DNA from: an uncultured Acidobacteriota bacterium | GTDB lineage: Bacteria; Acidobacteriota; UBA6911; CAINFC01 | DNA length: 51,062 bases | Direction: 5' to 3' | NCBI GenBank assembly: GCA_903847975.1 | Contig: CAINFC010000288.1 | Span: forward strand, 1 to 51,062 | Shown here: one piece after another, positions 19,844-44,631 of the stretch | Position numbering within the stretch: the first letter of the stretch is position 1 | Layout of the letters: each line of letters opens with the position of its first letter | The notes under the pieces: model-generated | The model's input: the letters and a program-made list of their open reading frames with translations, nothing else | Databases searched by the model: none | Told to the model about the DNA's origin: nothing | Program-made: the position numbers and the translations under genes

Positions 19844-19849
19844 TATAAT
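19844..19849 (+). promoter_or_regulatory. Possible -10 box (TATAAT) upstream of the export genes
   Basis: A perfect TATAAT at 19844-19849 lies in an AT-richer stretch 114 bp before the wza-like start. No well-spaced -35 hexamer is visible (nearest TTGCTT leaves only 12 bp), so an activator-dependent or alternative promoter is possible. Weak evidence. Confidence 0.3.
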
Positions 19850-19903
19850 TACCACGTACCAATCAACCCATTTTCGTTTTAACAAGGCGTTTTTGGGGGC
19901 CAA

Positions 19904-19966
19904 ATGTTCAGGTTTTCGTTGATGGCTGTTCGCAACAGGCTCACAACAGGAGATCCAAGCAGGTGA
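19904..19966 (+). CDS. Possible 20-aa leader peptide coupled to the wza-like gene
   Basis: ATG 19904 follows GGGGG at a spacing of 5 bp and opens a 20-codon frame (MFRFSLMAVRNRLTTGDPSR) whose TGA overlaps the GTG start of the next gene (GTGA at 19963-19966). Such an arrangement allows translational coupling. No other support; it may be chance. Confidence 0.25.
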   Translation: MFRFSLMAVRNRLTTGDPSR

Positions 19967-20997: not shown

Positions 20998-21004
20998 GGC
21001 GACG

Positions 21005-23221: not shown

Positions 23222-23235
23222 GAAAAACCGCCGGC

Positions 23236-25304: not shown

Positions 25305-25309
25305 GGACC

Positions 25310-25894
25310 ATGTTTAAAAGCCTGATGACGCGACTGCTTCAGCCCGCGGCGTCGCTGACCGGAAAAATCCTCGATCCGCTCGGCAGGGTCTGGGCCCACG
25401 CCCGCCTGGCATCCCGGCTCGCCTGGCCGCTCGATCCGTCGGTGGTCATTCTCGGCGTGCCGGAAGTGAGAGGCACCGGGCAGATCCGCCTGGGCAAAAA
25501 CCTTTACCTCTACCGCGAGCTCTACCTGGAAACCCAGGAGGACGGCAGCATCCGGATCGGCGACAACGTCGTCTTCTCGCGCGGGGTGCACGTGGTCGCC
25601 TTTTCCCGGATTTCCATTGGTGACGGGACCATGATCGGGGAATACAGCAGCATCCGCGACGCCAAACACCGCTTCGGCGGAGGACAAAGCATACGGGACT
25701 CGGGCCACGATGCCGAGCCCATCTCCATCGGGCGGAACGTATGGATCGGGCGCGGGGTCACGGTGCTGGCGGGCGTCACCATCGGAGACGACGCCGTCGT
25801 CGGCGCCAACGCGGTGGTCACCCGCGACGTACCCGCCGGGGCCACCGTGGCCGGCATCCCCGCCCGGCCGATCGTCCCCCGGAGCACCACATGA
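25310..25894 (+). CDS. Hexapeptide-repeat acyltransferase (WbbJ/WcaF-like)
   Basis: Left-handed beta-helix protein of 194 aa. Hexapeptide repeats run from IRLGKNLYLYRELYLE through IRIGDNVVFSRGVHVV, then ISIGRNVWIGRGVTVLAGVTIGDD and VVGANAVVTRDVPAG, ending with the typical AGIPARPI. His in RDAKHRFG or in SGHDAEPI may be catalytic. A sugar O-acetyltransferase role within the repeat unit is likely. ATG 25310 is used because the frame upstream belongs to the previous gene's strand-mate. It overlaps the next gene by ATGA. Confidence 0.82.
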   Translation: MFKSLMTRLLQPAASLTGKILDPLGRVWAHARLASRLAWPLDPSVVILGVPEVRGTGQIRLGKNLYLYRELYLETQEDGSIRIGDNVVFSRGVHVVAFSRISIGDGTMIGEYSSIRDAKHRFGGGQSIRDSGHDAEPISIGRNVWIGRGVTVLAGVTIGDDAVVGANAVVTRDVPAGATVAGIPARPIVPRSTT

Positions 25895-27156
25895 AAGACA
25901 CCCCGCGGCTGATCCTTTCCGCGTACCAATGCGGAATCGGGATGGGATCGGTCTCCGAGATCGGCTGGCAGTGGTACTCCCGCCTGGCCGGGCGGATCCC
26001 GCTGGTGCTGGCTACTCACATTCGCAACCGCCCGGCTCTTGCCGCCGCCGGCGCGCCCCTGCCCGGCACCGAAGTACTCTTTGCGGACACGGAATGGTTT
26101 GCCGGCCCCCTCTACCGCATGGCGGCCCGGCTGTTTGCCAACAGCGAACACGCATTGTTCCTGGTTTCCTCCCTGGACTTTTTTCTCTACGACCGGGTGG
26201 CTCGAAAGATGCTGAAGCGCCGCCTCGCCGAGGGCCAGCGCTGGAACCTGGTTCATGCCGTCACCCCCGTCTCCCCGGTAGCCGCCACCTCCCTGGCACG
26301 ACTGCGCCGGCCGGTCATCCTGGGGCCGCTGAACGGCGGCCTGCGCACGCCCACCACCTTTCCGGAACTGAAGCACCAGGACTCCGGCTGGGTGTATCCC
26401 ATCCGGAACCTGGGAAAAGTGGCCGATGCCCTGCTGGGTTCGACCCGCAACGCCCGGCTGATCCTGACGGCGACGCAGTCCACCCTCGAAGATTTTCCGC
26501 AGCGCTACCGCTCCCGCTGCCGGCCCATGCTGGAGAACGGCGTCGACCTGGCGCGCTTCCCGTTTCACCCCTGGCCGGCCCCGCCTTCCCCGACCGAGCC
26601 CCTGCAGCTCCTGTTTGTCGGCCGCCTGATCGCTTTCAAAGCACTTCCTTTTCTGCTGGAAGCGATGGCCCGGGTACGGAAAGAATTCCCGGTCCGGCTG
26701 ACCGTGGTCGGCGAGGGGCCGATGCGCCAGCCCTGGCAGAATGCAGCCCGGGAACGGGGCCTGGAAGAGATCGTTACCTTTACCGGCGCTCTTTCTCTCG
26801 ATCAGGTATCCCGGCACATGAGCCGGGCCCATCTCTTCTGCCTGCCCTCGGTGCGGGAGTCCGGCGGCGCGGTCCTGCTGGAGGCCATGGCGGCCGGCCG
26901 GCCGGTGATTGCCGTCGCGTACGGCGGACCCCGGGAAATCGTCGATGATGAAGTGGGATTGGCAATTCCGCCCCGGAATGCGGAGACCATCATTGCCGCG
27001 CTGGCCGAATCCTTCCGCGATGCGGTTCGCCACCCCGAAGCCTGGCGGCGGAAGGGTGAGTGCGGGCGGCAGCGGGCCGAGCAGAAATATGGATGGGACG
27101 CCAAAATAGAGGAAGCCATCCAGCTTTACCAACACATCCTGCACGGAGATCTATGA
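25891..27156 (+). CDS. Group 4 glycosyltransferase
   Basis: GT-B enzyme of 421 aa. The N-terminal acceptor loop is SAYQCGIGMGSVSEIGWQWY. The C-terminal donor domain has FVGRLIAFKALPFLLEAMA, VVGEGPMR and the E-x7-E pattern in RESGGAVLLEAMAAGRPVIA. It is coupled by ATGA to the preceding acyltransferase and by 4 bp to the following glycosyltransferase. Activity inferred from intact motifs; sugar unknown. Confidence 0.87.
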   Translation: MKDTPRLILSAYQCGIGMGSVSEIGWQWYSRLAGRIPLVLATHIRNRPALAAAGAPLPGTEVLFADTEWFAGPLYRMAARLFANSEHALFLVSSLDFFLYDRVARKMLKRRLAEGQRWNLVHAVTPVSPVAATSLARLRRPVILGPLNGGLRTPTTFPELKHQDSGWVYPIRNLGKVADALLGSTRNARLILTATQSTLEDFPQRYRSRCRPMLENGVDLARFPFHPWPAPPSPTEPLQLLFVGRLIAFKALPFLLEAMARVRKEFPVRLTVVGEGPMRQPWQNAARERGLEEIVTFTGALSLDQVSRHMSRAHLFCLPSVRESGGAVLLEAMAAGRPVIAVAYGGPREIVDDEVGLAIPPRNAETIIAALAESFRDAVRHPEAWRRKGECGRQRAEQKYGWDAKIEEAIQLYQHILHGDL

Positions 27157-28454
27157 GCCCTTTTCCTGCCCATTTCCGCTACCTCCTGGTTACCCACATC
27201 CCCTTCGCGCGCAACCGGGACGGCACCGTTGCGCTGGACGGATTGTGGGCCAGGGATCTGAACGGGCTGGCCGCCTCCATCGGACCGATCCGCGTGGCGG
27301 CACCCCAACTGGACGGCCAGGAGGGTCTTAAGACCTGGGGGCCGACCGCGGCGGTTCTGGGAGCCGACTCCCGGATCTGTTTTCAGGGATTTCCCCCGAT
27401 GCGCTCCTCGCGGGATTTCTGGTCCCGCAGAAAAATCTCTGCCATCCTGCGCCGGGAGGTAGCCGAGGCGGACCTGATCCATACTTCCAATTTTTTCCCG
27501 CCCTACGTGTGCCTGAGCTACGCCCACGACTGCGCGGTCCGGATGGGGAAGAAGACGCTGCTGGTGATTGCCGAGGATTTCTTCGACATGCTGGAGTGGG
27601 AGTGGGTCCGCATGGCCGAAAGCCCGTTCCGGTACCGGTGGCGCCGGCAGAATCTGGCGGCGCTGGACCGGCGCGTCCGGCGGAGCGCGGCCACGGCTTC
27701 CCTCACTTTTCTGCATACTCCGGCGGCGGTCACCCGCTACCGGCTTTCAGCGCGCAACGGCATCGCCATACGTCAGCCGGGCTACGAAACCGAGGACATC
27801 ATCGACCCGGCCCGGTTCAGCGAAAAATGCGCGCAGCTGCAAAGCGGGGCCGCCCTTGTCCTGGTTACCGCCGGCCGGCACAAAGCCCTCAAGGGCCTGG
27901 AATTTCTTGTCGGCGCGGTTTCCCTTCTGGCCCGCTGGAACCGGCGCGTGGAACTCCGGGTTTACGGGCAGGGGGAAGAAACCGGGTCGCTCCGGGCACT
28001 GGCACATTCCGCCGGAGTCGCCGACCGGGTTTCCTTTCCCGGCTCGCTCCCCCCCGGGGGTGAGATTTATCGGGCCATTGCCGCCGGCCATGTTTTTGTG
28101 ATGCCCCACCGCACCACCGATTTCGGCAGGGCTTTCTTCGACGCCATGGCCGGGGGCTGCCCGGTGGTTGCTTTCCGGACGCCGGCCAGCATCGATACGG
28201 TGCGGGACGGAACGGACGGGCTCCTGGCGCCGCTGGACGATGTGGAAGGGCTGGCAGCCTGCATCCAGCAGCTGGATGCCGACCGGGCTCTTACCGTACG
28301 CCTGGCGACCGCCGCCCGGGATCGCGCTCTCCGAAATACGCGCAGCGACTGGTTTCAATGGAGAGCCGAGTGGATCCGGGCCCTTTTTGCCGACCCGCAA
28401 ACGGCCGACGGACTCCAGCCAGCCGATGGAACCGGGGACAAAAGTGCACGTTGA
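27153..28454 (+). CDS. Group 4 glycosyltransferase with altered E-x7-E motif
   Basis: GT-B-type protein of 433 aa. The N-terminal half contains LVTHIPFARNRDG and FFPPYVCLSYAHD. The C-terminal half shows VTAGRHKALKGLEFLVGAV and VYGQGEETGSLR. In the donor site the usual E-x7-E reads TDFGRAFFD: the first Glu is Thr and the second is Asp, so donor binding may differ. AMAGGCPVVAF follows as normal. It overlaps the flippase gene by up to 29 bp. Probably active, but less certain than its neighbours. Confidence 0.78.
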   Translation: MSPFPAHFRYLLVTHIPFARNRDGTVALDGLWARDLNGLAASIGPIRVAAPQLDGQEGLKTWGPTAAVLGADSRICFQGFPPMRSSRDFWSRRKISAILRREVAEADLIHTSNFFPPYVCLSYAHDCAVRMGKKTLLVIAEDFFDMLEWEWVRMAESPFRYRWRRQNLAALDRRVRRSAATASLTFLHTPAAVTRYRLSARNGIAIRQPGYETEDIIDPARFSEKCAQLQSGAALVLVTAGRHKALKGLEFLVGAVSLLARWNRRVELRVYGQGEETGSLRALAHSAGVADRVSFPGSLPPGGEIYRAIAAGHVFVMPHRTTDFGRAFFDAMAGGCPVVAFRTPASIDTVRDGTDGLLAPLDDVEGLAACIQQLDADRALTVRLATAARDRALRNTRSDWFQWRAEWIRALFADPQTADGLQPADGTGDKSAR

Positions 28455-30066
28455 ACCGGTCTCCCCGCCGGGAGAAGACCATTCCAAAACCGTCCGCGAC
28501 ACCCTGTCGACGAATGTGGTCATCGACATGAGCGCCCGCATCGGCTATCTCCTGACGCGGTTCTTCATACCTCCTTTCGTGCTGGCCCATGTGGGCCTGG
28601 ACGCCTACGGACTCTGGTCCACCGCCTTTATCCTGGTATCCTACCTCGGCGTGTCGACCCTCGGCATTTCAAATGTCTACATCAAGTTTGTGGCCGAGTA
28701 CTCGGCACGGAAGGATTACCAGCGGGCCAACGCTCTGCTTTCCACCGGCCTGATGGTAACCACTCCTCTGTGCTCCGCGCTTTTCGTCCTGCTCTATTTC
28801 GGCTGGCCTCGCCTGGTCGAATACCTCAACGTCCCGGCCCCTCTCCAGACCGACGCCCAGGAAGTAGTGCTGCTGGTGGTAGCCATCTTCCTTTCTTCCA
28901 TCGCCTTCTCCGGATTCCGGGATGCCCTGACCGGCGTCCAGAAGCTGGCCGTGGTGCAGACCAGCTGGATGATCGCCTACCTGGTGGAAACGGCTCTGAT
29001 TTTTATACTGATCGGCGCCGGAAGGGGAATCCGCGGCCTGGCGGAAGCCTTTCTGATCCGAATCCTGCTGGAAATCCTCCTTGCTGCTTTTTTTGCCTTT
29101 CGTCGTCTCCCCTGGCTGAAAATTTCTATTTCGCTTTTCGACCGGCCTTCCCTCCATCTGCTCTTCTCCTTTGGGGGAGTTGTACAGCTGCTCAGCCTGG
29201 TTTCCATCATCCTGAACTCCATCGAGCGCGCCCTGGCCGCCCCCCTGGTGGGGCTGGAATCCGCCGGGCTCCTGGATATCGGCAAGAAGCTGCCGAACAT
29301 GGCCTCCTCGGTTCCCCACGCATTTGCCGCTTCCCTGGTGCCGGCCGCCTCCTACCTGCAGGGGGGACTGGATGGAAAGCCCGAGGAGCAGGAAAAGGCA
29401 CGCAAGCTGTACGTCAAGGGAGCCCGATATATGAACCTGGCTACGGCCTTTGTCTGCGGGCTGCTGGCTACCGCTCCCCTGCCCCTTCTGGATGTCTGGC
29501 TGGGAAAGCGCTATCCGGGAACCGCTTTTCTGATGGTGGTCTTCTGCCTTTCCACCCAGGCCCACCTGATGACCGGCCCGGGCACCTCCATTCTGAAAGG
29601 CCTCGGCCGGCCGAAAGAGGAAATGCATTACATTATTCCCAATCTGGTGGCGGTGGTGATTTTCCTGGCTGTCAGCTACCTTCTTGTCGGCTGGACAACC
29701 TTCGGAATTGCCGTGTCCGTCAGCGCGGCCAAGATCGTTTCCGTCGTCTATTTTATTCGGCGATCCAACCGCCTGCTGGGCGTATCCGACGGCTCCTACC
29801 TGCGGAGCGTGGCGCTTCCCGGAATAGCGCCCTACCTGATCGGACTGGTTCTTTCCCTGCCTGTGCATCTGGCCCAGGCACATGTCAGCCGCTGGACCCT
29901 GGCTCTTTTCCTCCTGGCGCTGGGGCTGGCCTACTCCCTGGCCGTCCTGCTGGTCGTGGACCGCTGGGTGTTCGAATCGGGGGAACGGCTGTGGTTCCAT
30001 GCCGTGATTCAGGACCGCGTGGGGCGGTGGCGGCCGTCCTTGCGGCTTAACGCCAAAGAAGGATAA
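28426..30066 (+). CDS. Wzx-type polysaccharide flippase
   Basis: Polytopic membrane protein of about 546 aa with 12 to 14 hydrophobic helices, in the MOP superfamily (oligosaccharidyl-lipid flippase). The first helices read SARIGYLLTRFFIPPFVLAHVG and DAYGLWSTAFILVSYLGVSTLG, a common opening for this family. Start choice is open between ATG 28426 and the in-frame GTG 28444; both overlap the preceding gene. It would move the undecaprenyl-linked repeat unit to the periplasm for the polymerase at 12059. Slightly longer than typical Wzx (about 400-500 aa). Confidence 0.85.
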   Translation: MEPGTKVHVEPVSPPGEDHSKTVRDTLSTNVVIDMSARIGYLLTRFFIPPFVLAHVGLDAYGLWSTAFILVSYLGVSTLGISNVYIKFVAEYSARKDYQRANALLSTGLMVTTPLCSALFVLLYFGWPRLVEYLNVPAPLQTDAQEVVLLVVAIFLSSIAFSGFRDALTGVQKLAVVQTSWMIAYLVETALIFILIGAGRGIRGLAEAFLIRILLEILLAAFFAFRRLPWLKISISLFDRPSLHLLFSFGGVVQLLSLVSIILNSIERALAAPLVGLESAGLLDIGKKLPNMASSVPHAFAASLVPAASYLQGGLDGKPEEQEKARKLYVKGARYMNLATAFVCGLLATAPLPLLDVWLGKRYPGTAFLMVVFCLSTQAHLMTGPGTSILKGLGRPKEEMHYIIPNLVAVVIFLAVSYLLVGWTTFGIAVSVSAAKIVSVVYFIRRSNRLLGVSDGSYLRSVALPGIAPYLIGLVLSLPVHLAQAHVSRWTLALFLLALGLAYSLAVLLVVDRWVFESGERLWFHAVIQDRVGRWRPSLRLNAKEG

Positions 30067-30098: not shown

Positions 30099-30494
30099 AT
30101 GATACGCAAAACGAAAATTCTGGTGGTGGATGATGAGAGGCATATCGCCCGGTTCCTGGAATTCGTTCTGAAAAGGGAAGGCTACGATGTGGCCGTGGCC
30201 CACGACGGGGACCACGCCCTGGCTACGGTTAGGTCCTTCCGTCCGGACGCCATGGTTCTGGACGTGGTCCTGCCGAAGCAGTCGGGATTGGAGGTCCTGA
30301 AATCCGTCCGCTCCGACCCCGTCCACGCCCATATCAAGGTTCTGGTGCTGACCGCCAAATCCTTCGAGGAAGGGCTGGAAAAAATGCAGCAGGCCGGAGC
30401 CAATTCGCTTTGCAGCAAACCGATTGCTCCCTCGGTACTTCTGAAAACATTAAGCGAGCTGGGAGCAGCTCCGAAAACGGAAGACACGGACTGA
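30099..30494 (+). CDS. Single-domain response regulator
   Basis: Stand-alone receiver of 131 aa. The acidic pair is Asp11-Asp12 in LVVDDE, the phosphoacceptor is Asp55 in VLDVVLPKQSG, the switch Thr is in VLTAKS, and the lysine is in CSKPIAP. There is no output domain. GGGGG lies 5 bp before the ATG. It directly precedes a PP2C-HATPase protein and a STAS protein, so it may carry a phosphoryl signal to that pair. It could also be the target of the two HPt-ended hybrid kinases farther downstream (inference). Confidence 0.9.
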   Translation: MIRKTKILVVDDERHIARFLEFVLKREGYDVAVAHDGDHALATVRSFRPDAMVLDVVLPKQSGLEVLKSVRSDPVHAHIKVLVLTAKSFEEGLEKMQQAGANSLCSKPIAPSVLLKTLSELGAAPKTEDTD

Positions 30495-30505
30495 TACCCG
30501 ACCCG

Positions 30506-32638
30506 ATGGACGAGCGGAACGACCAATCCCCTAGCCCGGAGCGCCCGACCGCCGCCGCGGACAGCCGGTGGCCGAAGCTGTTGGGCCGGCTCGAGCAGAC
30601 GGTGCGCCCTCTGGCCCGCCGGCTTGGCCTGGCTCTCGGGATTTCCCTGGATGGAAACCTGGAGTGGCTCGAAGCCCACGAGTCCTGCCGGTGCCGCAGC
30701 CTGACGGGCCTGCCGCCCGCGGATTCAGCCGGCGACTCGCTGGCCCTGGTACCGATTCCAATGGCCCCGGAAGAAGGCCTCGTGGTGCTGTGCCCGGGTG
30801 CCGCGGGAGGCCCGGGATTGTCGGCCCTGGTGGAAATCGTCGGTATGGCCTGGGCGGAAATCGAGCGGGATGCCGAGCAGGAATCGCTGCTCACGGAAAT
30901 CGGCGCCTGCTGGGAATGCCTTGACACCCTTTTCCGGATCCATGCGGATCTGCGGGAGATTCACCAGGCACAGGTACTGCTCAACCGGATTCTGGAAAGA
31001 GCTGTTACCTTTCATGCCGGCCTCAAGGCCGTGCTGTGGATCGAATCCGAAGGGCGCCTGAAAGCGGTTGCCTGCCGGAATACGGTCCCTTGGCCCGATC
31101 GGGATCCGGGAGAAGGGCTGATCGGCAAAACGATTCGCAACCGGATGACCACCGTATTGAACGCCCGAACTCCGGGCCCCGATTCCCAGCAGGCGGAACC
31201 GGAGCTGTCCGACGCCGTCAGCCTGGTGATCGCACCGGCCGGAACCCGGGAAGCCCTGATCGGCGCCCTGGCCCTATGGCACGACACCGAGCCGGTACCG
31301 TTCGATTCCACCCGGATCCGCCTGATCGAAAGCGTAGCCATGCAGGCGGCCGCTATCGTCGAAAGCGATCGATTTCACCAGGCTTCCCTGGAAGGAGAAC
31401 GGCTTAAAAACGAGCTGGAAATCGGTGCCAAAATCCAGCAAATGCTGCTTTTCAAGGAACCCCCGCAGGATATCCCCGGCTTGCAGATCGGCGTTATCAT
31501 GATACCCTCACGGAAGGTCGACGGCGATTTTTGCGAGTACATCCGCCACTCCAACCATTGCCTGGATATCGCCGTCGGCGACGTGATGGGCAAAGGGATT
31601 CCCGCCGCCCTGGTGGGCGCGGCCACCAAGAGCCAGATCCTGCGCTCGCTATGCAGCCTGCTGGCGGTTGCCCGGAGCGGAACGACCCCCTCCCCGGCCC
31701 AGATCGTCAATGCCGTTCACCAGGAACTGTCGGAACGGCTGATCGATCTGGATTGCTTCGTAACCCTCTGCTACGCCCGGATCGACCTGGACGCCCGACA
31801 GCTTGACCTGGTGGATTGCGGTCACACCAAAACGATTCATGTGGATGCGGGCAGCGGCAGCGTCCGGATGCTCAGCGGGGACAACCTGCCGCTTGGGGTC
31901 TCCATGCGCGAGGTCTACACCCAGAACACGGTCCCATTCAGCGACGGAGACATGATCGTGTTTTATTCCGATGGGATTACCGAAGCCCGCGATCCCGAGG
32001 GTGCTTTCTTTGGGGAAACCGGCCTCGCCCGGAGCCTTCAGGACTGCCCTTGCGGACCGCCCGACGAGTTCATCCGGACTCTGCGGCAGGACCTGGCCGC
32101 CTTTACGCGGACCGAAGCCTTCGCCGACGACCTAACCTGTGTGGCCGTGCGAATCGGGGGACAGGAGCCCGCGCAAACGTCACTGGTGACGCAGCTGGAG
32201 TTGTCCAGCCGTTTCCAGCAGCTCGGGCGCCTGAGGGAGTGGCTGCGCGAAGTGTATGCCCGGGACGCACATGAAGATGAAGACGGCTTTCATCTTCTGG
32301 ATCTGGCCCTGACAGAGGTTTTTACCAATATCGTCCGCCACGCCTGCCATGAAGAGCCGGGGTACCTTATCCGAATCCAGGCGGAAAGCCGCCCCCATCG
32401 GGCGGTGATTACCGTGACTTACCCGGGAGAATTTTTTGATCCCGGGACAGCGCCGCCCCCGGATTTCGACGGAAACCGGGAGGGCGGATTCGGGCTCTAT
32501 ATCATTTCTCAGGCGGTGGACGAGGTGAGCTATTCCCAGACTGCCCAGGGGGACAATCAGGTCCGACTGGTCAAGAGATTTCAATCGATTCAACAAGGAG
32601 AGTGCAATAATGGTGCAACTGGTAGAAAAGGCAGGTGA
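30506..32638 (+). CDS. GAF / PP2C (RsbU-SpoIIE-type) phosphatase with C-terminal RsbW-like HATPase
   Basis: Cytoplasmic regulator of 710 aa. A GAF-like sensor is likely near residues 140-300 (ILERAVTFHAGLKAVLWIES). The PP2C phosphatase domain, near 305-545, has the metal-binding VDGDF (about 338), GDVMGKGIPAAL, FYSDGITEA and FADDLTC motifs, all intact. The C-terminal RsbW-like domain keeps the N-box LTEVFTNIVRHA and the G2-type loop GGFGLYII. In the G1 box, however, Tyr639 (TYPGEFFDP) replaces the Asp that normally contacts adenine, so kinase activity is doubtful. It ends overlapping the STAS gene by 29 bp. Likely dephosphorylates the STAS protein. The start at 30506 avoids overlap with the receiver gene. 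Confidence 0.88.
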   Translation: MDERNDQSPSPERPTAAADSRWPKLLGRLEQTVRPLARRLGLALGISLDGNLEWLEAHESCRCRSLTGLPPADSAGDSLALVPIPMAPEEGLVVLCPGAAGGPGLSALVEIVGMAWAEIERDAEQESLLTEIGACWECLDTLFRIHADLREIHQAQVLLNRILERAVTFHAGLKAVLWIESEGRLKAVACRNTVPWPDRDPGEGLIGKTIRNRMTTVLNARTPGPDSQQAEPELSDAVSLVIAPAGTREALIGALALWHDTEPVPFDSTRIRLIESVAMQAAAIVESDRFHQASLEGERLKNELEIGAKIQQMLLFKEPPQDIPGLQIGVIMIPSRKVDGDFCEYIRHSNHCLDIAVGDVMGKGIPAALVGAATKSQILRSLCSLLAVARSGTTPSPAQIVNAVHQELSERLIDLDCFVTLCYARIDLDARQLDLVDCGHTKTIHVDAGSGSVRMLSGDNLPLGVSMREVYTQNTVPFSDGDMIVFYSDGITEARDPEGAFFGETGLARSLQDCPCGPPDEFIRTLRQDLAAFTRTEAFADDLTCVAVRIGGQEPAQTSLVTQLELSSRFQQLGRLREWLREVYARDAHEDEDGFHLLDLALTEVFTNIVRHACHEEPGYLIRIQAESRPHRAVITVTYPGEFFDPGTAPPPDFDGNREGGFGLYIISQAVDEVSYSQTAQGDNQVRLVKRFQSIQQGECNNGATGRKGR

Positions 32639-32948
32639 CATTGCCATGGTGGTGTTGTCGGGAGAAAACCTGGACGCCAGCAACGAAAAGGACTTCAAGC
32701 GGGAAATCCGCCCGATCCTGGAAGCCAATAAAAAAGTGGTGCTGGACATGGGGAAACTGCTGTTCGTGGACAGCTCCGGCCTGGGTGCGATTCTGTCCTG
32801 CCTGCGTCAGCTGAACAGCGCCGGCGGAGACCTGAAGCTGTGCGAAATGACCAAGCCGGTCCGGACCCTTTTCGAACTGGTGCGCATGCACCGGATTTTC
32901 GATATTTACAATTCCCGGGACGAAGCTCTGCGCGCCTTTCAGCGCTGA
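32610..32948 (+). CDS. STAS-domain anti-sigma factor antagonist (SpoIIAA/RsbV-like)
   Basis: Protein of 112 aa, a single STAS domain. The phosphorylation loop is LFVDSSGLGAIL, with Ser55/Ser56 as candidate phosphosites. CAAGGAG-type Shine-Dalgarno bases precede the ATG, which lies inside the end of the phosphatase gene. In partner-switching systems the unphosphorylated STAS protein binds its kinase or another effector. No sigma factor gene is present here, and polysaccharide genes follow directly, so its target may be the polymer machinery itself, as proposed for SypA in Vibrio (analogy). Confidence 0.92.
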   Translation: MVQLVEKAGDIAMVVLSGENLDASNEKDFKREIRPILEANKKVVLDMGKLLFVDSSGLGAILSCLRQLNSAGGDLKLCEMTKPVRTLFELVRMHRIFDIYNSRDEALRAFQR

Positions 32949-32982: not shown

Positions 32983-34140
32983 ATGAAAGCGATTATCTTG
33001 GCAGCCGGCCGGGGAACCCGGATTCAGCCGATTACCTATTCGATCCCCAAACCGATGATCCCGATCATCAGGAAACCGGTGATGGAGTTCCTGATCGAAC
33101 TTCTGCACCGCCATGGCATACGGCAGATCATGGTCAACACCAGCTACCTGGCCCCGACCATCGAGGATTACTTTCGCGACGGATCCCGGTACGGGGTTCA
33201 AATCGCCTATTCTTTCGAAGGATACCTGGAGGACGGCCATATCGTGGACGCTCCCGTGGGCTCCGGCGGCGCACTGAAGAAGATCCAGGATCACTCCGGC
33301 TTTTTTGACGAAACCTTTCTGGTGCTTTGTGGCGATGCCCTGATCGACCTGGACCTGACCGAACTGCTCTCCCGCCACCGGGAAAGCAAGGCAGTCGCGA
33401 CCATTGCCCTGGCGGAGGTCCCGCGGGACCAGGTCTCCAGTTACGGTGTGGTGGTGAGGTCGTTCGACGGCCGGATCCGGGAGTTCCAGGAAAAGCCGTC
33501 CGTGGCCGAAGCGAAAAGCAACACGGTCAACACCGGCATCTATGTCTTTGAACCCGAGGTTCTCGAGCGCATTCCCTCGGGCACCAACTATGACATCGGC
33601 TCGCAGCTGTTTCCCGATCTGGTTCGCCGGGATGCGGCTTTCTTCGGGGTGACGCTCCCCTTTCAGTGGCTGGACATCGGCAAGATCACCGATTATTACA
33701 AAGTGATGCAGATGGCTCTGATCGGCAATATCCACGGGTTCCGGGTTCCCGGCACGGAAGTCCGGCCTGGAATCCGCTTCGGACTGAACGTGCGGGCGGA
33801 TCTGAGCCGGTGCCACCTTACCCCCCCCATCTTCGTCGGAGGCAGCTCGACCCTGGAGCCCGGCTGTACCATTGTCGGACCGACCATGATCGGCAGCGGC
33901 TGCCGGATCGAGGCCGATTCCCACATCGAAAAAAGCCTGGTCTTCGATTACACCCGCATCGGCCGGGAAGCCTTTGTGAGAAATGCCATGATATCCGGAA
34001 AGTACTGCATCGACTCCTCCGGAGGGGTCGTCGATCTGGAGCGAGCCAATGTGGGCTGGATCGCCGGCGATGCCCGCAGCCCCCAGAAATCCCTGAACGA
34101 AGAGCAGCAGGAGCTGCTGCGGATGCTGAAGGACCTATGA
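32983..34140 (+). CDS. NDP-sugar pyrophosphorylase with left-handed beta-helix tail
   Basis: Nucleotidyltransferase of 385 aa that would make the activated sugar for the repeat unit. The signature LAAGRGTR (residues 6-13), PKPMIP, GSGGALK and the metal-binding LCGDALIDLD (Asp118) are intact. NTGIYVFEPEVLE and WLDIGKITDYY complete the sugar site. Hexapeptide-like repeats follow from about residue 280 (PIFVGGSSTLEPGCTIVGP). It resembles mannose-1-phosphate guanylyltransferases or glucose-1-phosphate nucleotidyltransferases; nucleotide and sugar cannot be assigned by eye. It overlaps the phosphoglycosyltransferase gene by 4 bp. Confidence 0.87.
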   Translation: MKAIILAAGRGTRIQPITYSIPKPMIPIIRKPVMEFLIELLHRHGIRQIMVNTSYLAPTIEDYFRDGSRYGVQIAYSFEGYLEDGHIVDAPVGSGGALKKIQDHSGFFDETFLVLCGDALIDLDLTELLSRHRESKAVATIALAEVPRDQVSSYGVVVRSFDGRIREFQEKPSVAEAKSNTVNTGIYVFEPEVLERIPSGTNYDIGSQLFPDLVRRDAAFFGVTLPFQWLDIGKITDYYKVMQMALIGNIHGFRVPGTEVRPGIRFGLNVRADLSRCHLTPPIFVGGSSTLEPGCTIVGPTMIGSGCRIEADSHIEKSLVFDYTRIGREAFVRNAMISGKYCIDSSGGVVDLERANVGWIAGDARSPQKSLNEEQQELLRMLKDL

Positions 34141-34928
34141 CGCCCGTCTCCGTCCGCGAGCCCGAGGGGAGCCGGATTTCCCGCACTTCCGCCACGCCCT
34201 CCGACCGGAATTACCGGGACCGGTTCGAGCTCACCGAAGAACTGTACCGCCGATACGGCGGTTCCGGCTGGAGCCGCCGCTGGCGACTGGCGCGAAAGAA
34301 GTACTTCTGGCTGATGGTCGTCGGCGGCGCCCGCCTTCTGAAGCGGGCCCTGGACGTGGCTGTAGCCGGATCGATGATGGTCGCCCTGATGCCCCTGTTC
34401 CTGGTTCTGGCTCTCTGCATCAAGCTGACCGACGGGGGCCCGGTACTTTTCTGGCAGACCCGGGTAGGCCGCTGGGGAAGGGAGTTTCCTTTTCCTAAAT
34501 TCCGGTCCATGGTGGTCAACGCCGAAAAACTCAAGGATGCCATTCTGGCCCAGAGCCATCACAAGGACAGCATCACCTTTAAAATGAAGCGGGATCCACG
34601 GGTCACCTGGATCGGCCGCTTCCTGCGTAAGCTGAGCCTGGATGAAATGCCCCAGCTCTACTGCGTTCTGAAAGGAGATATGTCCCTGGTCGGACCCCGT
34701 CCGCCCCTGCCGAGAGAAGTGGCCCTGTATACGCTCAAAGACCGCCGCCGGCTGGATGTCATCCCGGGCTTGACCTGCATATGGCAGGTGAGCGGCCGGG
34801 GCGACATACCCTTTGCCCAGCAGGTGCAGCTCGACATCCAGTACATCGAGAGCCAAAGTCTCTGGCTGGATCTGAAGCTGCTGCTGCAGACTATTCCCGC
34901 TGTTATACTGGGCCGAGGCGCCTATTAA
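34137..34928 (+). CDS. Initiating phosphoglycosyltransferase (bacterial sugar transferase family, catalytic dyad intact)
   Basis: Monotopic phosphoglycosyltransferase of 263 aa that would transfer a sugar-1-phosphate onto undecaprenyl phosphate. After a soluble N-terminal stretch, the reentrant membrane helix is ALDVAVAGSMMVALMPLFLV. The family motif FPKFRSMV follows, then the catalytic Asp169-Glu170 in RKLSLDEMPQL, and KGDMSLVGPRPP. The C-terminus with GLTCIWQVSGRGD and IESQSLWLDLKLL is standard. All features of an active enzyme are present, so this is the committing step of repeat-unit synthesis. It is the only one of three PGT-like proteins here with the dyad. Eight bp separate it from the next gene. 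Confidence 0.9.
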   Translation: MTPVSVREPEGSRISRTSATPSDRNYRDRFELTEELYRRYGGSGWSRRWRLARKKYFWLMVVGGARLLKRALDVAVAGSMMVALMPLFLVLALCIKLTDGGPVLFWQTRVGRWGREFPFPKFRSMVVNAEKLKDAILAQSHHKDSITFKMKRDPRVTWIGRFLRKLSLDEMPQLYCVLKGDMSLVGPRPPLPREVALYTLKDRRRLDVIPGLTCIWQVSGRGDIPFAQQVQLDIQYIESQSLWLDLKLLLQTIPAVILGRGAY

Positions 34929-34936: not shown

Positions 34937-36361
34937 ATGCCCCCCGACTACTCCGATCCGTCCGACCGGGAAAAAGACCGCCAGGAGCTGTTCCGGCGGT
35001 TCTCCAGAGGAGGCCTGGCGCGCTCGCGTCTGCGACGCCTTCTTCAGGGAACCGTGTGGCCGCTGCTGATCGGCTCGGCCTCGGCCGCCAAGCGCCTGCT
35101 GGATTTCACCGCCGCGGCCCTGCTGCTGTTGCTATTGGCCCCCATGATGCTGCGCACCATTCTGCTCTGGCAGGCCACGGGACGACATGTTTTCCAGCGC
35201 ACCCCCCGGCTGGGCCGCTGGTGCAGGGAGTTTGACCAGCTTTCCTTCGCTCCGCGGTCGAACCGGCTGTTCCGGATCATGAAATCGCTCGGTCTGATTT
35301 CCCTGCCGGTGCTGTTCAACATTCTGAAAGGCGACATGTCCTTCATCGGACCGCGCCCGGTCAGCCCGGGAGAGCTGAGCCCGCGCGACCGTATGGCACG
35401 CCGGCGGTACGATGTCAAACCCGGACTGATCGGCCTTTGGTGGCTTCGGCAGAGAGGGAATATCGCCTACGACTCCGAGGCGCAGGTCGACCGGCAATAT
35501 GTCGACAGCCAGAGTGTCTGGGGGGACCTGGGCATCGTGCTGCGGGCTATCCCCGCCGTCTTTTACGGCAAGGGAAGCACGGACGCTCCGGACAGCCTGA
35601 CCATCCTGGGGATGCCGATCCGTAACCTGACCATGTCCGAGGCGGTGCAAGCCATGGCCGACTTCCTGAATGGCACCCAGCCACGTCAGGTCTGCTTCGT
35701 CAACGCCGACTGCGCCAACCTGGCTTACCGCGATCCCGAATACCTTTCTGTGCTGCGCACCGCCGACCTGTGCCTGGCGGACGGAATCGGCATCAAGCTG
35801 GCCGGAAAGCTTCTCGGGCGCGAGATACGGCAGAACGTCAACGGGACCGACCTGTTTCCGCGACTCTGCGAGGCGCTGGCGGAAAGCCCGCACAGCCTTT
35901 ATCTCCTGGGCGCCCGCCCCGGTATTGCCGAAGCGGTGCGGGACTGGATATCCCAGAACTATCCCGGCGCCAGGGTAGCGGGCTGCCGGCATGGCTACTT
36001 CCCCCCGGAGGAGGAACCGGCCGTCCTGCGGGAAATCGCTGCCTCCGGGGCCTCGCTGCTGCTGGTATCCTTCGGAGCGCCCCGCCAGGACAAGTGGATC
36101 CGCCGTCACCTTCCGGAAACCGGGGTCAAAGTGGCCATGGGGGTCGGCGGGCTGATGGATTTTTACTCCGGCCGGATTCCGCGGGCTCCGCAGTGGATGC
36201 GCGATATCGGCTTCGAGTGGATTTTTCGCTTCTACCAGGAGCCCGGACGCATGTGGAGGCGCTACCTGATCGGCAATGCCGTTTTCATGTACCGGGTGCT
36301 GGTCGAAAAATATTCCCGCCGGGACCGGAGATCCCCAAAGGCATCTAATACGGAGAGGTAA
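34937..36361 (+). CDS. Fusion: PGT-like domain lacking the catalytic dyad + WecG/TagA/CpsF glycosyltransferase
   Basis: Protein of 474 aa. The N-terminal part (about 45-215) aligns with the sugar transferase family: AKRLLDFTAAALLLLLLAP helix, LKGDMSFIGPRPVSPGE, and PGLIGLWWLRQRGN. The FRTM-like motif is replaced by LSFAP, and Ile121-Ser122 stand where the Asp-Glu dyad belongs. The C-terminal part (about 220-465) is a GT26 domain: NADCANLAYRDPEYLSVL, the catalytic-base-type Asp282 in LADGIG, NGTDLFPRL, SFGAPRQDKWI and VGGLMDFYSG. GT26 enzymes add the second sugar to the lipid-linked first sugar. The dead N-terminal domain could dock the lipid or the active upstream PGT (inference). Confidence 0.85.
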   Translation: MPPDYSDPSDREKDRQELFRRFSRGGLARSRLRRLLQGTVWPLLIGSASAAKRLLDFTAAALLLLLLAPMMLRTILLWQATGRHVFQRTPRLGRWCREFDQLSFAPRSNRLFRIMKSLGLISLPVLFNILKGDMSFIGPRPVSPGELSPRDRMARRRYDVKPGLIGLWWLRQRGNIAYDSEAQVDRQYVDSQSVWGDLGIVLRAIPAVFYGKGSTDAPDSLTILGMPIRNLTMSEAVQAMADFLNGTQPRQVCFVNADCANLAYRDPEYLSVLRTADLCLADGIGIKLAGKLLGREIRQNVNGTDLFPRLCEALAESPHSLYLLGARPGIAEAVRDWISQNYPGARVAGCRHGYFPPEEEPAVLREIAASGASLLLVSFGAPRQDKWIRRHLPETGVKVAMGVGGLMDFYSGRIPRAPQWMRDIGFEWIFRFYQEPGRMWRRYLIGNAVFMYRVLVEKYSRRDRRSPKASNTER

Positions 36362-36365: not shown

Positions 36366-37874
36366 ATGAATTGTATCGTAATCGCTGCCGCACACTGTCC
36401 CGCTCTGTCTCCGCTGGAGGAGCGGAATCCGGCTCTTCTGCTTCCGCTGGTGGACCGGCCTTTCCTCCAGCACGTCGTGGAGTTCCTGGTCGACCAGGGC
36501 ATTACCGAATTCGATTTTATCCTCAGCCACATGCCGGAGAAAATAGAGGAGTTCCTGGGAGACGGCGCCCGCTGGGGAAGCCGGTTCCGTTTCCATCTGG
36601 CCCGCGACCCGCTGCACCCCTACCGGAATCTTCCGCTGATCGCCACTCCGGACCGGGGGCCGGAGTTTTTTCTGGCCCATGCCGATCGCCTGCCGCTCCT
36701 TGACCCGGGTCCTATCCCGGACACCGGCGGGCCGGCCCTGTATTACCACCGGAGCGGAGACCGTCTCGCCTGGAGCGGGTGGGGGCGGCTGCAGCCCGCC
36801 GCCCTGGACGGTATCGGTGAAATGGACGAGAACCGCCTGGAAGAGCACTTGAAGGAGCAGCCCGGCACCCGGCTCGTAGAGGTGCCGGAAATGCTCCGGG
36901 TTCAGGCTTTTGACAGCCTCCTGGAATCCAACCGCGCCCTGCTGGCCAAAAAGATGCCCGGCCTGTCGCCTTCCGGAACGGAGACCGATGAAAGCATCTG
37001 GATTTCGCGGAACGTCAGCCTCCATCCGTCTGCCGGTCTGATCCCCCCGGTTTTCATCGGGCAGAACTGCCGGATTGGAAAAGGCGTGCGGCTGGGGCCG
37101 GGGGCCATTGTCGGTCATGACTGCGTTCTCGACACCCGCTGTACAGTGGCCGACTCGGTGATTTTTCCGGGCAGCTACGTGGGGGAGGCTCTCGAGCTGG
37201 ATCACGTGCTGGTGGATAAAAACCGGCTGGTCAATGTCAAGGTGGGCGTCGCCGTCTCCATTACCGACGATTTCATCCTGAGCGGGATTTCCGGGATCTC
37301 TTTCGGTAAAAAGCTGCACGGCTGGTTCTCCCGGTTCGCCGCCGCGTTCCTGCTGGTCCTGTGCTCCCCGGTTCTCCTGCTTACGGCTCTTTGTCTGGCG
37401 GCATTCCGCTCCGGCCCTGTGCTGCGCCGGAGCGGCGTCGTCCGCCTGCCGGCTCCCGCGGATCCGTTTCACTGGAAAACATTCTCCCTCTGGAGCTTTG
37501 AAAAGGATGCCGCCGGCACGCGCGGTCTGCGCCACCTGGTTCTGACTGCCTTGCCCCAGCTGATTCATGTGGCCCGCGGCCACTGCCGTTTCGTGGGAGT
37601 TGCCCCGCGGACCCGCGAGCAGGTGCAGGCCCTCCCCCGCGACTGGCAAGCGCTTTACCTGCAGGCCAAGCCGGGAGTCATCACCGAGGCCCTGGTTCAG
37701 TATGGCCCGAACCCTTCCGCGGACGATCTTTACTCGGCCGAGGTGTTTTATTCCGTCCGCCACGGTTTGGGCCACGACCTCCGGCTGCTTCTCCGATACC
37801 TGGGTCAGGTTCTGGGACTGTCCCCCCAGGCCCCGGCAGAGAGGGAGGATCCTTCCTCCTCCCAAAACCGCTAG
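36366..37874 (+). CDS. Fusion pseudoenzyme: degenerate nucleotidyltransferase + beta-helix + degenerate PGT-like domain
   Basis: Protein of 502 aa. The N-terminus aligns with the pyrophosphorylase at 32983, but LAAGRGTR has become IAAAHCPA, PKPMIP reads NPALLLP, the GSGGALK loop is missing and CGDA reads AHAD. Hexapeptide-type repeats follow near 215-310 (PPVFIGQNCRIGKGVRLGPG). From about 320, a membrane helix (FAAAFLLVLCSPVLLLTALCL) and the pattern TALPQLIHVARGHCRFVGVAPRT match a sugar transferase domain in which Thr394-Ala395 replace Asp-Glu and KFRTM reads KTFSLW. A good Shine-Dalgarno GGAGAGG precedes ATG 36366. Both enzyme halves look catalytically dead, yet the frame is intact, which argues for a structural role. 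Confidence 0.75.
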   Translation: MNCIVIAAAHCPALSPLEERNPALLLPLVDRPFLQHVVEFLVDQGITEFDFILSHMPEKIEEFLGDGARWGSRFRFHLARDPLHPYRNLPLIATPDRGPEFFLAHADRLPLLDPGPIPDTGGPALYYHRSGDRLAWSGWGRLQPAALDGIGEMDENRLEEHLKEQPGTRLVEVPEMLRVQAFDSLLESNRALLAKKMPGLSPSGTETDESIWISRNVSLHPSAGLIPPVFIGQNCRIGKGVRLGPGAIVGHDCVLDTRCTVADSVIFPGSYVGEALELDHVLVDKNRLVNVKVGVAVSITDDFILSGISGISFGKKLHGWFSRFAAAFLLVLCSPVLLLTALCLAAFRSGPVLRRSGVVRLPAPADPFHWKTFSLWSFEKDAAGTRGLRHLVLTALPQLIHVARGHCRFVGVAPRTREQVQALPRDWQALYLQAKPGVITEALVQYGPNPSADDLYSAEVFYSVRHGLGHDLRLLLRYLGQVLGLSPQAPAEREDPSSSQNR

Positions 37875-38245: not shown

Positions 38246-41200
38246 ATGCCATCGTCAAGCAATAATCCGGACGGACAGGAATACGGGGCCGGCAAGCATC
38301 CGGCCTGGCTGATTTCGATCCTGGAATATCCGGCGACCGCCTGGTTGATCCTGGCTTCGCTATTATGCATTTCCGTGTGGATCTGGTACGAAGCCGACCT
38401 TTTTATTCGCGAGAGAGGAGTCGAACGGTTTACGGACAGGACCGACGACATCGCCCAGGAGATCACCCACCACCTGGAGACCTACGAGACTTTTCTGCGC
38501 TGCGGAGCCGCCTTGTTCCAGTCCTCCCAGCATGTCCGCCGCGAGCAATGGAAAAACTTCATGGCCGGCTCCCAGATCTACCAGGTGTACCCCGGCGTGC
38601 AGGGTATCGGTTTCGCCCCGATCATCTCTTCCGAGGATGCAGAAGAACAGGTGCGCCGGATTCAGTCCGAAAGCTACCCGGATTTTCACATCTGGCCAGC
38701 GGGCCAGCGGACAGAGTATTCCCCGGTCCTTTACCTGGAGCCTCACGAGGAGCGGTCCCAGGGAACCCTGGGCTTCGACATGTATTCCGATCCGGTCCGG
38801 CGCACCGCCATGAACACGGCCCGCGATTCGGGAAAAATGTGCCTCTCCGGCATGGTGGATCTGGAGCAGGAACCCGGCGGGAAAACACAGAAAGGCTTCC
38901 TTATGATCCTGCCGGTGTATCGGCAGGCGGCCGGCCTGCAGAGCCTGAAAGAAAAGAGAGAAGCTCTGACCGGCTTCGTCTTCAGCCCTTTCCGCGTTCA
39001 GCCCTTCCTGGAAGGAATCTTGGGAAGGCTTTCCACGAATCTTACCGTTTCTCTTTTTGAAGCTCCGGGCACCGACGGAAAGCGGCTGATTTTTCATACC
39101 GGGGCAACCGTCCTCCCGGACTCCCCAAGCCGGCCAGCCGCCTTTCAGCGGACCGTGCCGCTGGTCGTCCACGACAGCCGGCCGTGGACCCTGCACATCC
39201 AGGCCGAATCCTCCTTCCTGGATATCACCGATCGTGTTTTGCCCGCGGTGGTGGCCATCGGCAGCGGTGCCCTGGCTCTGCTTATCTTTGTGGTGGTTTT
39301 GGTTCTCTCCGGACAGTCCAGCCGGGTGGGAAGACTGGCGCAAAAAATCACCGGACAGCTCGAACAGTCGGAGACCCGCTGGTCCCTGGCCATGCGGGTA
39401 ATCGGCGACGGCCTTTGGGACTGGAATCTGGAAAGCAATACGGTCACCTACGAACACCGCTTCAAGGAAATGCTCGGTTATTCCGACCAGGAGTTCGGCC
39501 CGTCGCCCGATGAGTTTCTGTCACGCCTGCATCCCGGGGAATCCGAGGAATTGCTCCACACCATCCGGCGCCACCTGGAGGGCGAGATTCCCGCGTTTTC
39601 TGCGGAGCACCGAATGAGGTGCAAGGACGGCTCCTGGATCTGGGTCTTATGCCGGGGCCAGGTAATGAATCGCGACCCCCAGGGAAAGGCGCGGCGATTG
39701 ATCGGCATCACCTCGGATATTACCGAACGGAAGCTTCATGAACGCGAGATTCAGCAGGCCCGCCAGAGCGCGGAATCGGCTAACCAGGCCAAGTCCGACT
39801 TCCTGGCAAAAATGAGCCATGAGATCCGTACGCCGATGAACGCAGTGATCGGATTGACCGGCCTCCTTTTGGATACCGATCTGAACAGGGAACAGAGGGA
39901 ATGGTCGGGACTGATTCGCAGCAGCGGGCAGCACCTTCTTTCGATCATCAACGACATTCTCGACTTCTCAAAGATCGAAGCCGGACTGCTCCAGCTGGAA
40001 AAAACTCCTTTCAACGTACGTTCCTGCATGCAGGAAGCCTTCGATCTGATCGCCCACCAGGCTTCACGGAAGGATCTGGACGTGGGCTACCTGGTGGAGG
40101 AGGATACGCCTCATGAACTCATCGGCGATGCAACCCGGCTGCGCCAGGTCCTAATGAACCTTCTCGGCAATGCGGTGAAATTTACCGAGGCCGGGGCGGT
40201 GACGGCCTCGGTCCGCGCCGTTCCCCTTGCGGAAAACACCTATCGTGTGGAATTTGCCGTCCGGGACACGGGCATTGGAATCGCCCCCGAAAACCTGGAT
40301 CGCCTTTTCCTGTCCTTCAGCCAGGGTGATTCTTCCATCCAAAAGAAATACGGCGGCTCGGGACTCGGCCTGGCAATCAGCAAGCAGCTGGTACAGATGA
40401 TGGGCGGCCACTTGTGGGTGGAAAGCACTCCGGGAAAAGGCTCCACCTTTCACTTTACCATGGAGGCACCGGCACCACCGGACCGGGAGACTACCGGCAC
40501 CACCGGACCGGAACAGGCCTTTTCCGGCAGGCGACTGCTGATCGTTTCTTCCTCCAGGGAGGTCCAGGATCTGATTTCCGGTCAGGTCCGTTCCTGGCAT
40601 ATGCAGCCTTTCCTGGCCGAATCGCCGGAAAATGCACTGAGCCGCATCCGCCGTCGCGAGCGGATGGACGCGATCCTGATTGACCGCAGTTCTTTCTCCC
40701 TGGACTGGAAAGAGATGGTATTCGCCCTGCGAGCCGAGCCGGCCTGCCGCTCCCTGCCTGTCCTGGTCCTGGAGCAATCCCGGGAAAAAGAGAATTTGCG
40801 CACCCGGGGAATAGGGGTCAATGTGGTCCGGAGACCGCTGAGCCCGCCGGATCTGTTCGGCTGCCTCGTTTCTTCCCTGGCCCGCCCGGCCCCGGCTCCC
40901 GCTGCGCCGGCGAACGAATCTGCGGATCCGGTGGTGAATCTCGCCGAACGGCTGCCGCTTCGAATTCTGTTGGCGGAGGATAACCCGACCAACCAGGTGG
41001 TACTTTCCCTGATTCTCGGAAGGCTCGGTTATAAGCCGGATACAGCTGTGGACGGCCTCGAGGCCGTGAAGGCCGCCACGGAGAAAGACTACGATCTGGT
41101 ACTGATGGACATCCGCATGCCCCGGATGGACGGCCTGGAAGCTTCCCGTCGGATTCGAGCCGCGCGGCCCGGCGGTTCGCCGTACATCATTGCCGTCACG

Positions 41201-41734
41201 GCAGACGCCATGAAAGGGAGCGAGGAAAAATGCTTCGCGGCCGGCATGAACGACCTTCTGACCAAGCCGATCGACCCTGCGGAACTGATGGCCTCCATCC
41301 GGCGAAGCCGGGGAGAGCCATCGGCAGCCCCTCGCCCCAAAGAGGAAAAGAGGAGCGGAGCCCGGCTCGTGATCGATTGGACCGTTCTCGAGCAGCTCCA
41401 GGACGGACAGGAAGAGGAGGAAACCGATATCCGGGCGGAACTTCTCGGCCTCTTCCTGGAGGATACGCCGGAAAGGCTTGCCGCGGCACGTCAGGCTTTC
41501 CTCGATGGGAATTCGGCCCTGTTGCGCGATGAAGCCCACGCCCTGAAAGGAAGCTGCCGCCAAATTGGCGCCGCGTGCCTGTCGGACCTCAGCGAGCAGC
41601 TGCAGCGAAAATCGGAGGATGCGGCACCGGCTGCGGAATTGATCTCCCTGCTGGATCAAATGGATGCGCAATTCTTCCTCGTCCGGCAAGCCGCGGAGGA
41701 CCGGTTTCGGTCCGACGCGGATCGGGAAACCTAG
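38246..41734 (+). CDS. CHASE-domain hybrid histidine kinase with pseudo-receiver, receiver and HPt
   Basis: Membrane sensor kinase of 1162 aa. Transmembrane helix 1 is near residues 28-45 and helix 2 near 330-352, flanking an extracytoplasmic CHASE domain (VQGIGFAPIISSEDAEEQVRR, GTLGFDMYSDPVRRTAMNTARD). A PAS domain follows (about 385-500). HisKA has His525 in MSHEIRTPMNAVIGL; the HATPase has NLLGNAVKFTEAG, DTGIGI and GSGLGLAIS. A degenerate receiver (about 757-880) lacks the acidic pair, though it keeps Asp813. A complete receiver has Asp955 in LMDIRMPRMDG. HPt His1098 is in EAHALKGSC. This is a full phosphorelay except for the final output regulator. Strongly similar in its C-terminal two thirds to the kinase at 44631. 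Confidence 0.92.
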   Translation: MPSSSNNPDGQEYGAGKHPAWLISILEYPATAWLILASLLCISVWIWYEADLFIRERGVERFTDRTDDIAQEITHHLETYETFLRCGAALFQSSQHVRREQWKNFMAGSQIYQVYPGVQGIGFAPIISSEDAEEQVRRIQSESYPDFHIWPAGQRTEYSPVLYLEPHEERSQGTLGFDMYSDPVRRTAMNTARDSGKMCLSGMVDLEQEPGGKTQKGFLMILPVYRQAAGLQSLKEKREALTGFVFSPFRVQPFLEGILGRLSTNLTVSLFEAPGTDGKRLIFHTGATVLPDSPSRPAAFQRTVPLVVHDSRPWTLHIQAESSFLDITDRVLPAVVAIGSGALALLIFVVVLVLSGQSSRVGRLAQKITGQLEQSETRWSLAMRVIGDGLWDWNLESNTVTYEHRFKEMLGYSDQEFGPSPDEFLSRLHPGESEELLHTIRRHLEGEIPAFSAEHRMRCKDGSWIWVLCRGQVMNRDPQGKARRLIGITSDITERKLHEREIQQARQSAESANQAKSDFLAKMSHEIRTPMNAVIGLTGLLLDTDLNREQREWSGLIRSSGQHLLSIINDILDFSKIEAGLLQLEKTPFNVRSCMQEAFDLIAHQASRKDLDVGYLVEEDTPHELIGDATRLRQVLMNLLGNAVKFTEAGAVTASVRAVPLAENTYRVEFAVRDTGIGIAPENLDRLFLSFSQGDSSIQKKYGGSGLGLAISKQLVQMMGGHLWVESTPGKGSTFHFTMEAPAPPDRETTGTTGPEQAFSGRRLLIVSSSREVQDLISGQVRSWHMQPFLAESPENALSRIRRRERMDAILIDRSSFSLDWKEMVFALRAEPACRSLPVLVLEQSREKENLRTRGIGVNVVRRPLSPPDLFGCLVSSLARPAPAPAAPANESADPVVNLAERLPLRILLAEDNPTNQVVLSLILGRLGYKPDTAVDGLEAVKAATEKDYDLVLMDIRMPRMDGLEASRRIRAARPGGSPYIIAVTADAMKGSEEKCFAAGMNDLLTKPIDPAELMASIRRSRGEPSAAPRPKEEKRSGARLVIDWTVLEQLQDGQEEEETDIRAELLGLFLEDTPERLAAARQAFLDGNSALLRDEAHALKGSCRQIGAACLSDLSEQLQRKSEDAAPAAELISLLDQMDAQFFLVRQAAEDRFRSDADRET

Positions 41735-44070: not shown

Positions 44071-44631
44071 ATGTACGGTATGGTCAATAAAGCGTTGCAC
44101 GGCCTGATTTCCCGCCGTTTTGGCGACACGGTCTGGCAGGAGATCCGAAAGCGAGCCGGTATCGACGTCGAGTACTTTGTCAGCATGGACTCCTACGACG
44201 ACGCCATTTCCTATCGGCTGGTCGGTGCCGCCAGCGAACTTCTGAAAATCCCGGCCGACGAGCTCCTGCGGGAGTTCGGACGCCACTGGATTCTCTACAC
44301 CGCCCAGGAAGGGTACGGCGAACTTCTCCAGGTGTGCGGCAGCAAATTCCAGGAATTCCTGCTGAACCTGGACAGTCTCCATGCCCGCATCGGAGTCAGT
44401 TTTCCCAAGCTGCGCCCCCCCTCGTTCCGGTGCTCGGACTGCACGGATAATTCCGTAGTCCTTCACTACTACACAACCCGGCCGGGCCTGGCACCCATGG
44501 TGGTCGGGCTGCTGGAAGGGCTTGGCGAAAGGCTGCAGACCGAAGTCGAGGTACAAATCCTCGCTTCGAGGGAGTCCGGGGCCGATCACGACCAGTTTCT
44601 GATCCGCCACCGTCCCAGGCAGGAAGAATAA
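44071..44631 (+). CDS. H-NOX haem nitric-oxide-sensing protein
   Basis: Soluble haem sensor of 186 aa, the usual length for bacterial H-NOX. The N-terminal motif is MYGMVNKALHGLISRRFG. The proximal haem ligand is His104 in LDSLHARIGVSFPKLRPP, and the haem-propionate motif Y-x-S-x-R reads YYTTR (133-137, Ser to Thr). No tyrosine follows within 13 residues of that motif, so a distal-pocket tyrosine for oxygen binding is not obvious and NO selectivity is likely (inference). GAAAGGACGG precedes the ATG. Its TAA overlaps the ATG of the partner kinase by one base, giving tight coupling. Confidence 0.93.
   Translation: MYGMVNKALHGLISRRFGDTVWQEIRKRAGIDVEYFVSMDSYDDAISYRLVGAASELLKIPADELLREFGRHWILYTAQEGYGELLQVCGSKFQEFLLNLDSLHARIGVSFPKLRPPSFRCSDCTDNSVVLHYYTTRPGLAPMVVGLLEGLGERLQTEVEVQILASRESGADHDQFLIRHRPRQEE

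Follow-up and report, generated by a model that had tools for sequence, protein, structure and literature searches.

Results

The DNA that we analyzed (the window, 51,062 nucleotides) carries a Wzx/Wzy-type exopolysaccharide cluster at positions 12059–30066, on the forward strand like the STAS, SpoIIE and sugar-transfer genes that follow it. This cluster encodes Wzy, several glycosyltransferases, SLBB export and Wzz-like proteins, and the basis for assigning 28408–30066 as Wzx is a weak SpoVB/flippase match. It also includes a gene (14664–16865) for a 733-aa protein with no Pfam match, which is 43% identical to its counterpart at locus L034. Response regulator, GAF-SpoIIE-HATPase and STAS genes occupy 30099–32948; the GAF-SpoIIE phosphatase-HATPase protein (30461–32638) is the likely partner of the STAS protein (32610–32948). 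An intact nucleotidyltransferase-LbH protein resembling mannose-1-P guanylyltransferase (32983–34140) comes next; it adjoins the module described below in the window and is not constant in relatives. Downstream of the module lie two large hybrid histidine kinases, one with a CHASE domain (38246–41734) and one with an HNOBA domain (44631–47882), and kinases resembling the latter also accompany the module in L031, L034 and L144.

The module itself consists of three genes. P (34137–34928) encodes an active-type small phosphoglycosyl transferase (PGT) of 263 aa with all catalytic residues and no additional Pfam domain. F (34937–36361) encodes a 474-aa pseudo-PGT-GT26 fusion, and its distance of 8 bp from the end of P agrees with an earlier note on this DNA, which had placed an active PGT gene 8 bp upstream. 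Gene 4 (G; 36366–37874), beginning 4 bp downstream of F, encodes a pseudo-nucleotidyltransferase, left-handed beta-helix (hexapeptide) repeats and a second pseudo-PGT, a companion of P and F that the earlier note had overlooked.

The F protein contains two Pfam domains: Bac_transf (PF02397; residues 52–209, E = 6e-29) in the PGT half and Glyco_tran_WecG (PF03808; residues 276–443, E = 1e-62) in the GT26 half, the second scoring 211 bits against a curated cut-off of 27.4. An N-terminal helix and a re-entrant membrane helix (RMH) together span 34985–35173 (residues ~17–79) and are followed by the pseudo-PGT core (35174–35563; residues 80–209), the GT26 core (35591–36181; residues 219–415) and a C-terminal appendage (36182–36328). 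Fold matches with VIA Z below 8 were disregarded. The predicted model of F (pLDDT 86.5, pTM 0.73) matched TagA with TM 0.97 and VIA Z 26.5, so that the model has the GT-E fold, and matched PglC (8e37) with TM 0.77, VIA Z 17.1 and 2.3 Å over 166 residues, as expected of a PGT core fold. A frameshift or fused-ORF artifact was ruled out by the presence of the same open fusion in independent genomes. Sequence comparison thus confirmed 34937–36361 as a real fusion of an apparently dead PGT half and a GT26 half with an intact active site.

The residues of the PGT half can be read against PglC, in which D93-E94 form the catalytic dyad, K59, R88 and R111 serve the substrate, D11 and P24 lie in the re-entrant helix and D168 stabilizes that helix (PMC12802240). 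We mapped these positions by aligning 12 neighboring PGTs, five other PGTs of the same genome and 14 fused halves, and scored retention and loss at positions conserved in 17 canonical PGTs. The catalytic residues were kept in all 12 aligned neighboring PGTs and in 5 out of 5 other PGTs of this genome. In F, the region that reads SLDEMPQLYC in active PGTs reads GLISLPVLFN, and the K-F-R-S-M stretch has disappeared together with the mobile loop behind it; the earlier note was therefore right that this half has lost both its FRTM motif and its dyad. Equivalents of PglC K59, R88, D93 and E94 are all gone from F. The D-E dyad was present in 0 out of 14 fused halves, with D alone, and no E, in a single one (G247). 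The lysine of KFR (K59), the loop DP and the Q were likewise found in 0 out of 14, and the R88 equivalent (R164) in 1 out of 14. By these residues, the fused halves are neither catalytic monotopic PGTs nor equipped with the K59 and R88 substrate contacts. As a control, we examined 100 other PGT domains of the retrieved loci, of which 99 had the dyad; 22 missed nothing but the strict DExPQ pattern, and DE could be read in 21 of the 22.

The membrane helix and the fold residues were largely retained. F keeps R53, D56 and P69 in the RMH (the last two equivalent to PglC D11 and P24), as well as GPR, PG and D197 in the core. Among the 14 fused halves, the RMH arginine was found in all and the aspartate and proline in 13 each, which marks this element as a re-entrant helix, and its hydropathy resembled that of active PGTs. 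The equivalent of the RMH-stabilizing D168 was present in 12 out of 14. The core retained the Gly-Pro of GPR (14/14; its Arg in 12/14), the Pro-Gly of PGL (14/14), R157 (14/14) and a family-specific WW/R pattern. The loss is thus selective, removing catalytic and substrate positions while leaving those of the re-entrant helix and the fold. The most divergent members, G384 and G334, have a shortened N-domain that is poorly conserved past the membrane helix.

A lone mutant was ruled out, because the fusion occurs in 14 genomes, always without the D-E dyad: homologs retaining it in a fused PGT half, which the earlier note had said would refute its reading, were looked for in this domain order and numbered 0 out of 14. 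Full-length fusions occurred in 11 of the 396 Acidobacteriota genomes sampled, representing ten families. At least three further fusion records were found (L034, L035 and L042, the last labeled as a deltaproteobacterial MAG), the count outside Acidobacteriota being a lower bound. In a tree built without the PGT part of gene 4, which was too divergent, the fused PGT halves formed one clade (support 100/99), on long branches, and the neighboring PGTs formed another (96/99). Another acidobacterium carries a fusion in reversed order, GT26 and then PGT, with an intact dyad (STIDELPQ; L006:1372–2880).

A phmmer search aligned residues 220–458 of F with full-length TagA. The D-G-I-G motif, described earlier as intact, is present in F as ADGIG, and D282 corresponds to TagA Asp65. 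Equivalents of TagA N39, D65, Q167, R214 and R221 occurred in 14 out of 14 fusions (N256, D282 and Q384 being the first three in F), and the E168 position was occupied by D or E. TagA depends on its C-terminal appendage both to be active and to bind the membrane (PMC6493773). The F model has a helix at residues 436–464 in this appendage, where R431, R438 and R442 were found in 14 out of 14 fusions and position 441 was R or K in 13 out of 14, so that the R214/R221/R224 arginines of the TagA appendage are represented. Because the appendage and its arginines have been kept, the pseudo-PGT would be an additional membrane or lipid contact and not a replacement. The earlier proposal that it supplies such contact in place of the appendage therefore survives in part: the retained membrane-helix residues are consistent with the contact, but a substitute for the appendage is unlikely. 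Two further TagA positions differ in the fusions. T37 is Phe in 14 out of 14 (F254; window 35696–35698), and R83 is Asn in 14 out of 14 (N300; window 35834–35836), whereas 23 out of 28 other GT26 proteins have Arg there. These two replacements hint that the fusion subfamily may act on a different sugar substrate of its own.

To follow the whole module, we searched the 396 Acidobacteriota genomes with the P clade and with gene 4. In the P search, 12 genomes exceeded 329 bits and the PGTs ranked after them reached 295 at most; the gene 4 search returned the same 12 genomes, one of them (G320) through a divergent copy. P and G therefore occur in the same set of genomes (12/396), spread over 10 families, and F is present in 11 of the 12. 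The G320 fusion shares a contig with P and gene 4 but is separated from them by ~14 kb. The twelfth genome, G071, has P and G with a free-standing GT26 gene between them in opposite orientation. At this locus (L181:8415–11876) the free GT26 is divergent, and the genus-mate G213 has the fusion in that slot. The stand-alone GT26 of G071 suggests that what consistently follows P is a GT26 reaction, and it indicates that some lineages can do without the tether. Taking all 14 fusion genomes together, P was present in every one and the gene 4 pseudo-PGT protein in 13; in L035, which has P and the fusion, gene 4 was not found in the stretch examined. The active-type PGT gene beside the L035 fusion (L035:5094–5882) is cut by an in-frame stop codon, either real or an assembly error.

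The PGT domain of gene 4 is degenerate and lacks the dyad. Inspection of the alignment showed that the GxGTR signature and the PKP-motif lysine were absent in 12 out of 12 gene-4 rows, so that this protein does not qualify as a sugar-1-phosphate nucleotidyltransferase. Its model (pLDDT 76.5, pTM 0.54) matched nucleotidyltransferases, including MurU, and chains of the GMPPA/GMPPB and VTC1-KJC2 complexes; being of middling quality, the model lends weak support to the domain arrangement.

Coincidence of P, F and G would be negligible under random placement, although the genomes are non-independent samples. The distance matrices of the three proteins correlated at 0.82–0.89, which shows common inheritance only and not contact. 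As the fusion recurs beside P in 14 genomes, 13 of which have a second dead copy, the fusion, P and gene 4 give the appearance of a membrane assembly that has been conserved, not of a mutation.

Most relatives had a STAS gene in the vicinity of P or F, at a distance of no more than ~4 kb in 9 out of 14 fusion genomes: adjoining one of them in L032, L034, L145, L146, L147, L148 and L149, one gene away in the window and ~4 kb away in L031. A STAS gene was also near P in L181. This recurrence suggests partner-switch (STAS/SpoIIE) control of polysaccharide initiation and makes such control worth testing; our literature search gave nothing direct on STAS/SpoIIE control of exopolysaccharide initiation.

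Discussion

Tethering of the GT26 enzyme at the membrane next to an active PGT is the best explanation of the fusion. We consider it probable, with some reserve, that a pseudo-PGT holds a working GT26 at the membrane, serving as anchor and docking surface beside the dedicated PGT P, possibly together with gene 4. P would start the polymer, and the GT26 half of F would add the second sugar to the undecaprenyl-PP-linked sugar. The pseudo-PGT, which should no longer transfer sugar-phosphate, keeps its RMH and PGT core and would most likely anchor the protein at the membrane and dock it, placing the GT26 site beside P. Gene 4, with its second pseudo-PGT on a scaffold of beta-helix and pseudo-nucleotidyltransferase, may belong to the same assembly as scaffold or regulator. 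Channeling of the product of the neighboring PGT to the fusion, as the earlier note envisaged, is plausible; complex formation, direct contact with P and hand-over of the lipid-linked product are likewise putative. More tentatively, and with rather less than even confidence, we suggest that one active PGT and two dead ones, the first fused to the second-step glycosyltransferase and the other to the pseudo-nucleotidyltransferase/beta-helix scaffold, form a three-protein initiating complex under a STAS/SpoIIE switch, which would commit Und-P to one exopolysaccharide and pass its product on directly.

We know of no precedent for PGT-to-PGT contact. The docking reading also has to accommodate the GT26 of G071, which occupies the slot with no pseudo-PGT, the reduced N-domain of G384 and G334, and the membrane appendage that the GT26 half already has. 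In WbaP, moreover, the PGT active sites are 77 Å apart and the domains face away from the dimer interface (PMC10942596).

The main rival gives the dead domains a regulatory role: with gene 4, the pseudo-PGT would set the activity of the active PGT, either by binding to it or by sensing UDP-sugar or Und-P, the STAS/SpoIIE switch would act through them, and the link to GT26 would only secure stoichiometry. The co-inheritance of two pseudo-PGTs with each active PGT fits this role, as do the pseudo-nucleotidyltransferase of gene 4, with GMPPA/GMPPB and VTC1-KJC2 chains among its fold matches, the STAS genes near P or F in 9 out of 14 genomes and the direct protein activator of a PGT proposed in Myxococcus (PMC12802240). 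However, having lost the equivalents of K59, R88 and the dyad, the pseudo-PGT is unlikely to bind a nucleotide-sugar, and P and G persist in G071, which has no fusion. We regard regulation as rather unlikely to be the main function of the domain. Less likely still is a role of the N-domain as a plain membrane anchor, retained for the sake of its re-entrant helix and making no specific contact with the active PGT. The RMH is indeed better conserved than any other element, including in the shortest homologs, but core positions outside it are also kept (GP, R157 and PG in 14 out of 14 each, and the WW/R pattern), and the fusion strictly co-occurs with gene 4 and a single clade of PGTs. It is highly improbable that the N-domain is a functionless, decaying remnant of a bifunctional PGT-GT26 enzyme: catalysis has been lost and conservation is below that of the GT26 half (mean pairwise identity of 0.36 versus 0.52), but the loss is concentrated on catalytic positions and shared by one clade, whose 14 genomes keep the frame open and residues conserved.

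The preferred reading, a GT26 tethered beside P, bears on two questions about Wzx/Wzy pathways: what couples the initiating enzyme to the second one, and how a single pathway draws on the common pool of Und-P. With one dead PGT fixed on the second enzyme and another on a scaffold-like protein, the module offers a natural test case for PGT domains as docking modules. Our literature search, whose coverage was incomplete, found no paper pairing phosphoglycosyl transferases with the word pseudoenzyme.

Each part of the module has known relatives. The GT26 half resembles WecG/TagA/CpsF enzymes (Thermoanaerobacter italicus TagA, PDB 7mpk/7n41/5wb4) in its fold (TM 0.97), Asp base, Asn, Gln and appendage arginines; unlike TagA, it has an extra N-terminal pseudo-PGT, with F254 and N300 in place of T37 and R83 in 14 out of 14 fusions. 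The pseudo-PGT shares its overall fold, re-entrant helix residues and GPR and PG motifs with PglC (PDB 8e37/8g1n) and the WbaP catalytic domain (8t53), but lacks their KFR lysine, R88 and D-E dyad, and its mobile loop is deleted. Bi-PGTs, as mentioned in PMC10942596 (citing O'Toole 2021), are bifunctional monoPGTs in which a PGT domain is joined to another pathway enzyme. The fusion is not a Bi-PGT in the sense of a catalytic PGT domain linked to a second enzyme, because its PGT domain has no catalytic residues; unlike in the Bi-PGTs mentioned there, that domain is dead, and a separate gene next to it encodes the active PGT. GMPPA, a non-catalytic allosteric inhibitor of GMPPB (PMC11228364), parallels the pseudo-nucleotidyltransferase of gene 4 as a non-catalytic paralog in the pathway of an active form, although GMPPA and GMPPB are eukaryotic nucleotidyltransferases and have no PGT domain; regulation by gene 4 would be an analogy. 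EpsW, the proposed direct activator of the Myxococcus PGT EpsZ (PMC12802240), likewise illustrates a protein partner acting on an initiating PGT, but EpsW is a response regulator, EpsZ is a large PGT and no pseudo-PGT is involved. Set against these systems, the P-F-G module represents no new category but a conserved variation on Und-PP initiation as already known.
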